64,000 nucleotides of DNA from Demequina sp. NBRC 110055 (lineage in GTDB: Bacteria; Actinomycetota; Actinomycetes; Actinomycetales; Demequinaceae), in the NCBI RefSeq assembly GCF_002090135.1, contig NZ_BBRL01000009.1, forward strand, positions 62,001 through 126,000, in the 5' to 3' direction. The notes beneath the pieces are model-generated. The model saw only the letters and a program-made list of their open reading frames with translations. It did not search any database and was not told the origin of the DNA. Below, piece by piece: positions 46,651 to 49,691 of the stretch. The translations under genes were made by a program, and so were the position numbers. How positions within the stretch are numbered: the first letter of the stretch is position 1; each line of letters opens with the position of its first letter.

Positions 46651-47070
46651 TCACATGAACAGTGCGAGAATCATCCCCGACAGCGCCAAGGCCACGGTGT
46701 CGTGCAAGGTGTCGAGCAACGTCACGCCCGGGTGGCGCGCCGCGAAGCCGTTATGCAACGCATGGGCGCCGCCCCTGAACACCACGCCGATGACCGCGCC
46801 AAACGTGAGCCCTGCGGCCCAGCCGTCGACGCCCAAACCCACCATGAGCATGGCCAGCACGATGATGCCCAGCACGTTGGCGAGGAACGTGCCGCCAAAC
46901 GCCACGCCCATGTTGGCGTTCTCGACATCCGAGTCCTCGATCTTGCCCAGCCTCTTCCACACCGGAAACACGCCGGCGGGCGAGTAGTAGAACCACCCGA
47001 ACGCGAACGTCACGACGAACGCCACGAGCACGCCCCACCACGGAATGCCGTCGAACGAGAACCACTCCAT
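46651..47070 (-). CDS. DUF1761 family membrane protein
   Basis: 139 aa with four hydrophobic segments; VLVAFVVTFAFGWFYYSPAGVFPVWKRLGK and the end ALHNGFAARHPGVTLLDTLHDTVALALSGMILAL are typical of DUF1761. Function unknown. It starts on the SRPBCC stop codon (TGATG, or GTGA from a GTG at 47073), so the two are co-translated. Confidence 0.85.
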   Translation of the reverse strand: MEWFSFDGIPWWGVLVAFVVTFAFGWFYYSPAGVFPVWKRLGKIEDSDVENANMGVAFGGTFLANVLGIIVLAMLMVGLGVDGWAAGLTFGAVIGVVFRGGAHALHNGFAARHPGVTLLDTLHDTVALALSGMILALFM

Positions 47071-47537
47071 CACGAGCCCACTTTCTCTGCAGCGACGGCG
47101 ATGTCGTCGAGGTCCTCGACGAGCGCCTTCCGCGTGGCCTTCATGGCAGCCTTGCCGAATAGCGCCATCATGACACGCTGCCCCATGCCGGGGTCCTCCG
47201 TCTCGGCACCAAACGTGACGACGAGCTCCGTACCCATCTCGGTCGGGGTGAGGCGGAACACCGTCGTATACAGCGCTCCCCCGGCCCGCGACTGAACGGT
47301 GTAGGAGCGCGGCTCGTCGATGTCGCTGACCCACATCGTCTCGGCCTCGTCCCGGCCGAACATGCGGCGCGTCTCCTTCCACCGCGTGCCCACCGAGAAA
47401 CCGTCGCCCTCCAGGCGCTCCACGGCGACGATGTTGCGCATGACCTCGGGTGCGGAATCGAGGTCGGTGACGACGCTCCAGACCCCCTCCGGCGTGGCAT
47501 TGATGTCCTTCGTGACCTCGACCCACTCGTCGCTCAC
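47070..47537 (-). CDS. SRPBCC family protein
   Basis: 155 aa. The opening VEVTKDINATPEGVWSVVTDLDSAPEVM is the polyketide-cyclase/START signature, and the C-terminal helix GQRVMMALFGKAAMKATRKALVEDLDDIA closes the hydrophobic cavity. GTG start with GGGAGG six bases upstream. Translationally coupled to the DUF1761 gene, a pair whose joint role is unknown. Confidence 0.86.
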   Translation of the reverse strand: MSDEWVEVTKDINATPEGVWSVVTDLDSAPEVMRNIVAVERLEGDGFSVGTRWKETRRMFGRDEAETMWVSDIDEPRSYTVQSRAGGALYTTVFRLTPTEMGTELVVTFGAETEDPGMGQRVMMALFGKAAMKATRKALVEDLDDIAVAAEKVGS

Positions 47538-47655
47538 GCGTACCTCCCTCGTGCGGCGACGCCGCTGTCGCCTGAGCCCACGATATCGCGCTGTCTTGCC
47601 GCAACCGCCGCATCGGCGCTAGCCTGGCCGCACACGCCCTCGGAGGAGACTCACC

Positions 47656-47763
47656 ATGAGCAACGGCAGCCGCGTCGCCACGACGCAGGTCACTGCCGCC
47701 CCGATGTGCCCCCAGCCCTCGAGCATGTGCTGCCGCATGTGCTGCGAGGGCTGCTGTCTGTAG
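47656..47763 (+). CDS. polycysteine leader peptide upstream of cysK
   Basis: A 35-aa open frame with seven Cys codons at positions 18, 25, 26, 29, 30, 33 and 34, six of them in the last eleven codons ([10 protein letters not shown]). GGAGGA is eight bases before the ATG. Polycysteine leader peptides of this kind are known in mycobacteria as cysteine-responsive attenuators of sulfur genes (established knowledge). Being 151 bp before cysK-cysE, it should stall when Cys-tRNA is scarce. Unlike the mycobacterial examples it has a ribosome binding site rather than being leaderless. Confidence 0.75.
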
Positions 47764-47809
47764 AGCGTTGGCTCTCGGCCCCTGGGCCCACCCGCACGCC
47801 GCCAGCGCT
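47764..47809 (+). promoter_or_regulatory. stem-loop directly after the leader peptide
   Basis: AGCGTTGGC (47764-47772) pairs with GCCAGCGCT (47801-47809) through one G-U, with an inner GGCC/GGCC hairpin. The stem begins one base after the leader stop codon, so a stalled ribosome would change its folding. Confidence 0.5.
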
Positions 47810-47914
47810 CGCCCTGAACCGGAATCGAGTCTCGACTCGCCGCGTTCCCCCTCCGTGCCGCCCACCAGGGCAAACGACTACTCCCAGCAAGCCACCATCA
47901 CAAGGAAGAGAGAC

Positions 47915-48850
47915 ATGGCCAAGATCTACGAGGACGCCACGGCGCTCATCGGCAACACCCCGCTCGTGAAGATCAACTCGCTCACCGAGGGCGTCGACGC
48001 CACGGTGCTCGGCAAGCTTGAGTTCTACAACCCCGCCAATTCGGTCAAGGACCGCCTGGGTGTCGCCATCGTCGACGCCGCGGAGGCCTCGGGCGAGCTC
48101 AAGGCCGGCGGCACCATCGTCGAGGCCACCTCGGGCAACACCGGCATCGCTCTCGCGATGGTGGGTGCCGCGCGCGGCTACAACGTGGTCCTCGCGATGC
48201 CGGAGACCATGTCGAAGGAGCGCCGCGCGCTGCTGCGTGCGTTCGGCGCGGAGCTGGTCCTCACCCCCGGCCCCGAGGGCATGAAGGGCGCCGTCGAGGC
48301 CGCGAACAAGATCGCCGAGGAGCGCCCCGGCTCAGTCCTGGCCCGCCAGTTCGCCAACGAGGCCAACCCCGAGATCCACCGCAAGACCACCGCGGAGGAG
48401 ATCTGGGCCGACACCGACGGCGAGGTCGACATCGTCGTCGCCGGCATCGGCACTGGCGGCACCATCACCGGTGTGGGCGAGGTCCTCAAGGCCAAGAAGC
48501 CCGAGGTGCAGATCATCGCGGTCGAGCCCAAGGAGTCGCCCATCCTCAACGGCGGCCAGCCCGGCCCGCACAAGATCCAGGGCATCGGCGCCAACTTCGT
48601 GCCCGAGGTCCTCAACACCGAGATCTACGACGAGGTCATCGACGTCGACTCGGAGACCGCTATCGCCACCGCCCGTGCGGCTGCCCGCAAGGAGGGCCTG
48701 CTCGTCGGCATCTCGTCCGGCGCCGCCCTCCACGCCGCCATCGAGGTCGCGAAGCGTCCCGAGAACGCCGGCAAGACCATCGTGACGATCATCCCGTCGT
48801 TCGGTGAGCGCTACCTCTCGTCGGTGCTGTACGCCGACCTCATGGACTAA
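47915..48850 (+). CDS. cysK: cysteine synthase A (O-acetylserine sulfhydrylase)
   Basis: PLP enzyme of 311 aa that makes L-cysteine from O-acetylserine and sulfide. The PLP Lys45 is in NPANSVKDR, the phosphate loop is GTGGT in [15 protein letters not shown], and [10 protein letters not shown] binds the substrate carboxylate. AAGGAAGAG precedes the ATG. The C-terminal region ends in [10 protein letters not shown]. It is followed after 16 bases by cysE, and the two enzymes likely form the cysteine synthase complex. Control by the polycysteine leader is inferred. Confidence 0.97.
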
Positions 48851-48866: not shown

Positions 48867-49520
48867 ATGACTGACCGCATCGGCCCCCTTCGACTCGCAC
48901 TCGAGGACGTCAAGACGGCGCTGGTCCGCGACCCCGCGGCCCGTTCCGCCCTCGTCATCGCGCTGTCGTATCAGGGCGTCCACGCGGTGTGGCACCACCG
49001 CATCGCACACTGGCTGTGGACTCATGGCCTGAGGACGTACGGCCGGTTGTGGTCTCAGTACGCCAGGCGTCGCACCGGGATCGAGATTCACCCCGGTGCG
49101 ACGCTGGGACGCCGCCTGTTCATCGATCACGGCATGGGCGTCGTCATCGGCGAGACGGCCGTGGTCGGCAACGACGTGTTGCTCTTCCACGGCGTCACGC
49201 TCGGCGGCACCACCATGAGCCCCGGCAAGCGTCACCCCACGGTCGGCGACCGCGTGGTCGTGGGCGCGGGCGCGAAGGTGCTTGGTCCGGTGCACATCGG
49301 CTGTGATGCCCGCATCGGCGCCAACGCGGTGGTGGTGAAGGACGTGCCGGACGGCGCCACCGCCGTGGGCATCCCCGCGAAGATTCGCGAGCACCCGAGC
49401 GAGCGTGAGGCGGGCACCGCCGCATCATCCATCGACGCCGGCGATTCGCACATTCACCCCGATCCGGACGCGGCTCCCGGCTACGTCGAGCAGCGCGAAC
49501 CGGCGATGTATTACATCTGA
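48867..49520 (+). CDS. cysE: serine O-acetyltransferase
   Basis: 217-aa left-handed beta-helix enzyme that makes O-acetylserine from serine and acetyl-CoA. The N-terminal helical part ([16 protein letters not shown]) and hexapeptide core ([44 protein letters not shown]) carry the catalytic His in IDHGMG. It is shorter than E. coli CysE and ends in YYI; CysK binds the C-terminal Ile of CysE, so the terminal Ile fits complex formation. Second gene of the operon, AAGGAG overlapping the cysK stop. Confidence 0.96.
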
Positions 49521-49646: not shown

Positions 49647-49691
49647 ACGACGACGGGCCCCTCACCGATCAGGTGAGGGGCCCGTTGTCGT
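49647..49691. terminator. bidirectional terminator between cysE and dps
   Basis: A nearly perfect 20-bp stem built on GGGCCCCTCACC and GGTGAGGGGCCC with a loop of about five bases, between the convergent stops of cysE and dps. Confidence 0.85.

Follow-up and report, generated by a model that had tools for sequence, protein, structure and literature searches.

A conserved cysteine-codon leader with a stop-codon-anchored hairpin ahead of cysK-cysE in Demequina and related actinobacteria

The cysK-cysE genes of Demequina sp. NBRC 110055 are preceded, within the 64,000-nucleotide stretch of DNA analysed here (the window), by a short open reading frame (ORF) rich in cysteine codons, whose stop codon is partly taken up into a conserved RNA hairpin, P1. 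Judged from sequence and conservation, this is a conserved cysteine leader of a known kind, and its novelty lies in the stop-anchored hairpin and in the range over which the element occurs. The leader very probably would act as a cysteine sensor, and we moderately favour a ribosome-mediated cysteine attenuator of cysK-cysE in which P1 is the repressive hairpin. The features of the locus are as follows.

47596..47601, forward strand: −35-like box TTGCCG (sequence; relatives compared by eye)
47620..47625, forward strand: −10-like box TAGCCT at a spacer of 18 nt (sequence and comparison with relatives)
47642..47648, forward strand: ribosome-binding site GGAGGAG of the leader ORF (sequence)
47656..47763, forward strand: cysteine leader ORF of 35 codons with 7 Cys and a TAG stop (sequence and conservation)
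47763..47772, forward strand: 5′ arm of P1, GAGCGTTGGC, its first base being the G of TAG (alignment and covariation)
47801..47810, forward strand: 3′ arm of P1, GCCAGCGCTC (alignment and covariation)
47811..47814, forward strand: C-rich tail after P1, GCCCT in the window (alignment)
47826..47839, forward strand: P2, a small hairpin CGAGT-ctcg-ACTCG (signal in Demequinaceae only)
47840..47901, forward strand: C-rich, G-poor spacer before cysK (base composition)
47902..47908, forward strand: ribosome-binding site AAGGAAG of cysK (sequence)
47915..48850, forward strand: cysK, cysteine synthase A (TIGR01139)
48867..49520, forward strand: cysE, serine O-acetyltransferase (TIGR01172)

Both genes were assigned by NCBIfam equivalog models, with 450.9 bits for the cysK product against TIGR01139 (cut-off 350.95) and 234.9 bits for the cysE product against TIGR01172 (cut-off 210.65). 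The original prediction had described a 35-aa frame with seven Cys codons, six of them in the last 11, at 151 bp from cysK, and both the frame and the distance, counted from the leader stop to the cysK ATG at 47915, were confirmed on the sequence; the stem that it had placed one base after the ORF was corrected to one that takes in the third base of the TAG stop. The last Cys codon of the window leader is TGT and lies two codons ahead of TAG. Among 822 window ORFs of 8-80 codons in six frames, the cysteine leader was the only one with at least five Cys in its last 12 codons, and with Cys making up 0.66 percent of codons in 40 long window ORFs, at least seven Cys among 35 codons would be met with a probability of 3e-9. 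No NCBIfam or Pfam match was returned for the leader peptide, and Rfam covariance models applied to 47400-48100 gave three unrelated matches only, all far below the gathering score. The promoter-like boxes came from comparing relatives; they were not reported by a consensus scan of 47400-48000, which gave no promoter and no terminator-like site.

Searches of 36 same-genus genomes found a close cysK in 35 of them, and each of the 36 Demequina cysK loci from whole genomes (35 relatives plus the window) carried the leader: a short ORF in which Cys codons cluster and which ends in TAG, with P1 starting from the G of that stop. A TAG stop was not required in this genus search, and all 36 leaders ended in TAG nonetheless. 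The peptides varied in length and sequence, with 3 to 7 Cys in the last 12 codons, and a TGT two codons before TAG was the last Cys codon in all 36, to be compared with TGT making up 27 of the 109 Cys codons in the 40 long window ORFs. The leaders started with ATGAGC in 35 of the 36 loci, the remaining one (L035) having ATGACC. A TTGCN/TANNNT promoter-like pair stood at the usual distance in 34 of the 36, the exceptions being L035 and L005, where the box sits further upstream than usual; the −10-like box began 28-39 nt before the leader ATG in 35 of 36 loci, mostly at 35-36 nt. The leader ribosome-binding site was seen in 35 of 36 loci and was missing in L035, so that the earlier statement that the ORF has such a site and is not leaderless is right for the cysK leader. 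The remaining genome, G013, an assembly of ~150 contigs with a distant cysK match only, was the sole same-genus genome searched with neither a close cysK nor the cysK leader element.

Beyond the genus, the best 80 of 560 named cysK relatives were kept, and a strict element was defined by TAG, at least 2 Cys in the last six codons and a P1 score of at least 18. It was present in 34 of these 80 best named loci, compared with 2 of 800 base-shuffled upstream regions, and the 34 comprise eight Demequina-type records as well as Cellulomonas, Actinotalea, Oerskovia enterophila, Isoptericola, Georgenia, Antribacter and others. The Cys codons, on whose conservation in relatives the original prediction had staked itself, were thus conserved in 36/36 genus loci and in 34/80 loci at the strict level, and a cysteine-codon leader ahead of cysK-cysE is well supported by conservation. 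Among the 46 of 80 loci failing the strict test, nothing similar was found upstream of cysK in Arthrobacter, Agromyces and Intrasporangiaceae; Cellulosimicrobium (4 loci) and Oerskovia flava showed a Cys-rich ORF with a different stop or hairpin, and Promicromonospora thailandica (L070) and one Cellulomonas bin (L125) showed P1 with a single Cys near the stop. In the Cellulosimicrobium loci (L060, L061, L076 and L077) the Cys leader ends in TGA; GACGAC..GTCGTC can be seen by eye from within the TGA of L060, and the Cellulosimicrobium helices score like shuffles (39-65 of 100 as good).

At an E cut-off of 0.1, a covariance model covering P1 and the Cys tail and derived from 60 of 74 rows matched 23 of 24 Demequina genomes; among 12 others it matched four, two of these matches not being at cysK. 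At E up to 0.01, it matched 81 of 396 genomes of the order with one match each, 34 of them Demequina, and cysK lay directly downstream in 18 of the 20 inspected among the 47 non-genus matches. At the class level, four of 394 genomes were matched at the same threshold, the window's own included, and two of the four had no cysK nearby. Matches without cysK in the stretch (L165 and L185 of G072, L176 of G287, L184 of G497), weak matches on contigs other than those of cysK (G042, G043) and extra weak matches at E of 0.006-0.084 (G003, G016, G017, G044, G047) were taken as chance.

Comparison of sequences shows P1 to be a base-paired element whose arms covary. Its ten pairs were formed in 92.9 percent of the cells of 60 aligned rows (58 distinct), a favourable figure because rows with an odd P1 stayed outside the alignment, 7 of the 14 rows left out of the 74 having an odd or missing P1. 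Double-change cells numbered 20 against a shuffled mean of 4.7 and were matched by none of 500 shuffles, which ignore relatedness; five pairs were changed on both sides, as many being reached by 18 of 500 shuffles. When the partner was slid by 1 to 3 columns as a control, 27-42 percent of cells were paired and 2-14 double-change cells remained. In several non-genus relatives P1 was no better than shuffles (e.g. L079, with 23 of 100 shuffles as good). P2 was of narrower distribution, having many different paired sequences in Demequinaceae (z of the mean 7.6, 43 elements) and no signal outside this family (z 0.4, 49 elements).

For the sequence around P1 and the Cys codons, 92 distinct elements were collected by a pattern that requires Cys at −2 and TAG and does not require TGT (codons are numbered back from the stop). 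GCCCC follows P1 directly in 56 of the 92, and no U-tract after P1 was found in Demequina. In the low-GC relative L173 (G121), P1 reads GAGCATTGAT..GTCAATGCTC and is followed by TTTTTCTTG, an end that by eye looks like a terminator, unlike those of the high-GC relatives. The two other lowest-GC elements have GTTTC (L179) and CATAC (L175) at this place, so that a U-tract was seen in one of three. A search for further relatives of low GC yielded three genomes from two genera only. GC content as the cause of the GCCCC tail was set aside: the correlation between cysK GC3 and T in the tail was weak (rho −0.18, p 0.09), and the lower-GC Demequina L012 and L053 retain GCCCC, so that erosion of a U-tract does not suffice to explain this tail. 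Between P1 and cysK, the spacer has C 0.41 and G 0.22 in Demequina-type elements and C 0.48 and G 0.27 in the others, compared with a balanced composition upstream of other window genes (C 0.354, G 0.336); C-rich, G-poor RNA would suit Rho.

The Cys codons are conserved in frame. In codons −13 to −2, TGY triplets occurred 239 times in frame versus 56 and 7 in the other two frames in Demequinaceae (43 elements), and 154 times versus 30 and 12 in the other elements (49). The Cys at −2 was TGT in 92 of 92 elements and that at −3 in none of 48; at −4 it was TGT in none of 34 Demequinaceae versus 20 of 29 others, and at −5 in 14 of 25 outside Demequinaceae. Cys codon frequencies in Demequinaceae were 0.79 at −4 and 0.49 at −6. 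Folding was then computed with an assumed ribosome footprint held unpaired, which reaches 15 nt upstream and 11 nt downstream of the first A-site base. Over the 92 elements, P1 formed at 0.86 in free RNA, at 0.00 with the A site at the stop, 0.01 at −1, 0.22 at −2, 0.70 at −3 and 0.86-0.91 at −4 to −12; a slightly different RNA stretch in 44 loci gave 0.83 free, 0.00 at the stop and 0.08 at −2. In these computations, P1 is thus blocked by a ribosome standing on the stop or on codon −2, and the invariant TGT marks the upstream limit of the positions at which a stall mostly blocks P1.

These observations can be joined into an attenuation model. The transcript would begin near 47632, ~24 nt 5′ of the leader ORF. 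With ample Cys-tRNA, the ribosome would translate the Cys codons, terminate at UAG and depart, whereupon P1, based on the stop codon itself, would fold and restrain expression, with intrinsic-like or Rho-assisted termination or pausing of transcription as the most likely means. Under cysteine shortage, the ribosome would wait at the last Cys codons and cover the 5′ arm of P1, so that RNA polymerase is proposed to continue into cysK-cysE. We infer the leader output and the sign of control in this way, and consider P1 a probable switch. That it represses at the level of transcription is a call a shade below even, favoured by the U-tract of L173 and the C-rich, G-poor spacer with odds near even. 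Besides the choice of elements and rows, the retained GCCCC tails and the weak P1 of several relatives noted above, some points tell against the model: no terminator-like site lies in 47400-48000 and Demequina has no U-tract after P1; TGT is not confined to −2, occurring also at −4 and −5 outside Demequinaceae; and stalls at −4 or further upstream, where Cys codons are common, leave P1 free, so that strong starvation would require the ribosome to reach −2. Recoding of the UAG with the hairpin as its signal was also considered and was dropped on inspection of the sequence by eye.

The same genome has, outside the window, a second Cys leader ORF, MSQQQIVRASMMCRCCCAMCLPA, before a sulfite reductase gene (sir; G000 contig C4, ~174.2-174.4 kb, L200:733-804). 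A sir leader with an ending like CCxCCAMCLSA and at least 3 Cys in the last 14 codons was found in 29 of 30 Demequina sir loci, the thirtieth (L229) having two Cys, and G013, which has no close cysK, carries it as well (L242). Among eight sir loci from other genera of the order, a Cys ORF was present in one (L234). Inspection by eye showed no ribosome-binding site for the sir leader, whose ATG had a loose −10-like box (YANNNT) 5-7 nt before it in 21 of the 25 loci inspected among the 30; the leader may therefore be leaderless. A helix A just past the sir leader stop formed at 0.68 in free RNA, 0.96 with the ribosome at Cys −4 and 0.04 with the stop in the A site, and an overlapping helix B at 0.08, 0.20 and 0.37, respectively (30 loci), by which A and B are only partly exclusive. 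RNAalifold gave no compensatory support on the sir leader and did not choose helix A.

Against the model with a repressive P1, the opposite sign has to be weighed. The trp and his transcription attenuators place control codons in a leader peptide whose stop codon lies at a hairpin, and the overlap of P1 with the stop resembles the trp leader geometry. P1 would then be permissive: a stall at upstream Cys codons would leave it folded and expression on, and a ribosome at the stop would cover it and leave the exposed C-rich RNA to Rho or to an unseen terminator. Cys codons are frequent from −3 upstream, positions at which a stalled ribosome lets P1 form for the most part, the spacer is C-rich, and the sir leader of the same genus has such a geometry in its helix A (0.96 at Cys −4 versus 0.04 at the stop). 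We regard this sign as unlikely, given that a stall blocks P1 precisely at the best-conserved Cys codon, −2, that the 3′ arm of P1 has no conserved downstream partner (mean z −0.41; 4 percent of 92 elements above z 2), that the U-tract of L173 fits a terminator and not an antiterminator, and that P1 would be expected to refold after the ribosome departs. Nor did the P1 arms show any conserved pairing with upstream RNA (mean z −0.19, 92 elements), so a mutually exclusive antiterminator helix of the trp type was seen on neither side. Control of translation, in which leader RNA would hide the cysK ribosome-binding site until a stalled ribosome uncovers it, has less in its favour still and seems improbable. 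Cysteine leaders of M. smegmatis are said, in the accessible passages of two citing papers, to act on translation (PMC13236596, PMC9031893), one of which equates translation attenuation with a hidden Shine-Dalgarno site, and a stall does open the cysK site in a few loci (unpaired from 0.44 to 0.62 in L013, 0.35 to 0.55 in L024, 0.53 to 0.69 in L030 and 0.41 to 0.64 in L101); however, on average over 44 loci the site is equally open at 0.52 in free RNA, 0.55 at Cys −2 and 0.55 at the stop, it has no conserved pairing with the Cys tail or P1 (mean z −0.35, 92 elements), and the distance from the leader helix to the cysK ATG ranges from 43 to 187 nt (74 rows).

The two remaining explanations fare worse. 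That the peptide itself is functional, e.g. as a metal- or thiol-binding small protein, would agree with its own promoter-like boxes, its ribosome-binding site and its many Cys residues, but it matches no NCBIfam or Pfam model, its sequence diverges with shifting Cys positions down to members with only two Cys (−4 and −2), and the invariant codon and the stop are located at the hairpin and not in a recognisable protein motif; we hold it very improbable. A by-product of RNA folding, with TGC runs in an unused frame, could be suspected for the window itself, whose Cys stretch at ~47714-47752 folds into a stable hairpin. That sequence is common to L004 and L007 and absent from the rest of the genus, and the in-frame bias of 239 to 56 to 7, the presence of the leader in all 36 genus loci, among which its Cys codons change place, and the mere 2 of 800 shuffled regions passing the strict test make chance scarcely credible. 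The repressive-P1 attenuator remains the reading we prefer.

Cysteine leaders have been predicted before. In 2005 they were proposed for Mycobacterium, Propionibacterium acnes (cys operon) and Bifidobacterium longum (cbs), and the accessible part of that paper gives no conserved hairpin able to be a terminator and names Rho as a weak guess (Seliverstov et al., PMC1262725). The present element shares with those actinobacterial leaders its position ahead of cys genes and a run of Cys codons close to the stop, with the Cys codons conserved, and differs from them, as they appear in that part, in its stop-anchored, covarying hairpin conserved over several families. The occurrence outside mycobacteria, as put forward in the earlier claim, is not new in itself, being preceded by the 2005 prediction. 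The mycobacterial Cys leaders were tested in later work, and a hidden ribosome-binding site is said to have been demonstrated as their mechanism. These polycysteine leaderless short-ORF attenuators of mycobacteria are reportedly the subject of Canestrari et al. 2020 (Mol Microbiol 114:93). Shared with them are a short Cys ORF before cysteine or sulfur genes, several loci per genome and ribosome speed on Cys codons as the sensor. In contrast to them, the cysK leader has a ribosome-binding site (35/36 loci) and a 5′ untranslated stretch in place of a leaderless start, its stop lies within a conserved hairpin, and folding averaged over loci did not indicate that the cysK ribosome-binding site is generally hidden; of the proposed variant of the mycobacterial mechanism, the Cys-codon leader is thus upheld by conservation and the hidden site lacks general folding support. 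The Demequina sir leader, with its −10-like box near the ATG and no visible ribosome-binding site, may be nearer to the mycobacterial form.

Compared with the trp and his attenuators, the control codons in a leader peptide beside a hairpin are shared, whereas neither a U-tract terminator nor competing helices were found in Demequina; the U-tract after the hairpin is absent in the window and present in one relative (L173). Ribosome-mediated attenuation by Cys codons has likewise been proposed for uORFC-8-2 before cysS in Rhodobacterales, which, in the accessible part of its description, differs in having two tandem Cys codons inside the first stem, a terminal U-run and another gene and phylum (PMC8632094). 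A literature search, with most subscription journals beyond its reach, returned nothing on a cysK leader element in Demequina or Cellulomonas.

If the leader acts as suggested, ribosome-sensed cysteine control would extend beyond mycobacteria and the two other predictions of 2005 to Demequina, Cellulomonas, Actinotalea, Isoptericola, Georgenia and relatives, and the conserved RNA element can be used for searches. Should the sir leader be leaderless, one genus would hold leaderless and ribosome-binding-site-led leaders for one amino acid, and how leader geometry sets the sign of control would become testable. We tentatively propose, as a possibility somewhat short of even, a distinct design with a stop-codon-anchored hairpin and an invariant UGU at the last stall site able to block it, and with two Demequina cysteine leaders of opposite geometry (ribosome-binding-site-led at cysK-cysE, where a stall would block the helix, and leaderless at sir, where a stall would free it) forming a ribosome-only set of cysteine-responsive operons.

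Two neighbouring features were also noted. The divergent gene at 47070-47537 on the reverse strand matched an Rv0910-family toxin model weakly (33.6 bits, cut-off 100), and its product we take to be more likely a general START-like protein. A strong inverted repeat followed by TTGTCGT, seen by eye at 49654-49684 after cysE, is probably the operon terminator.
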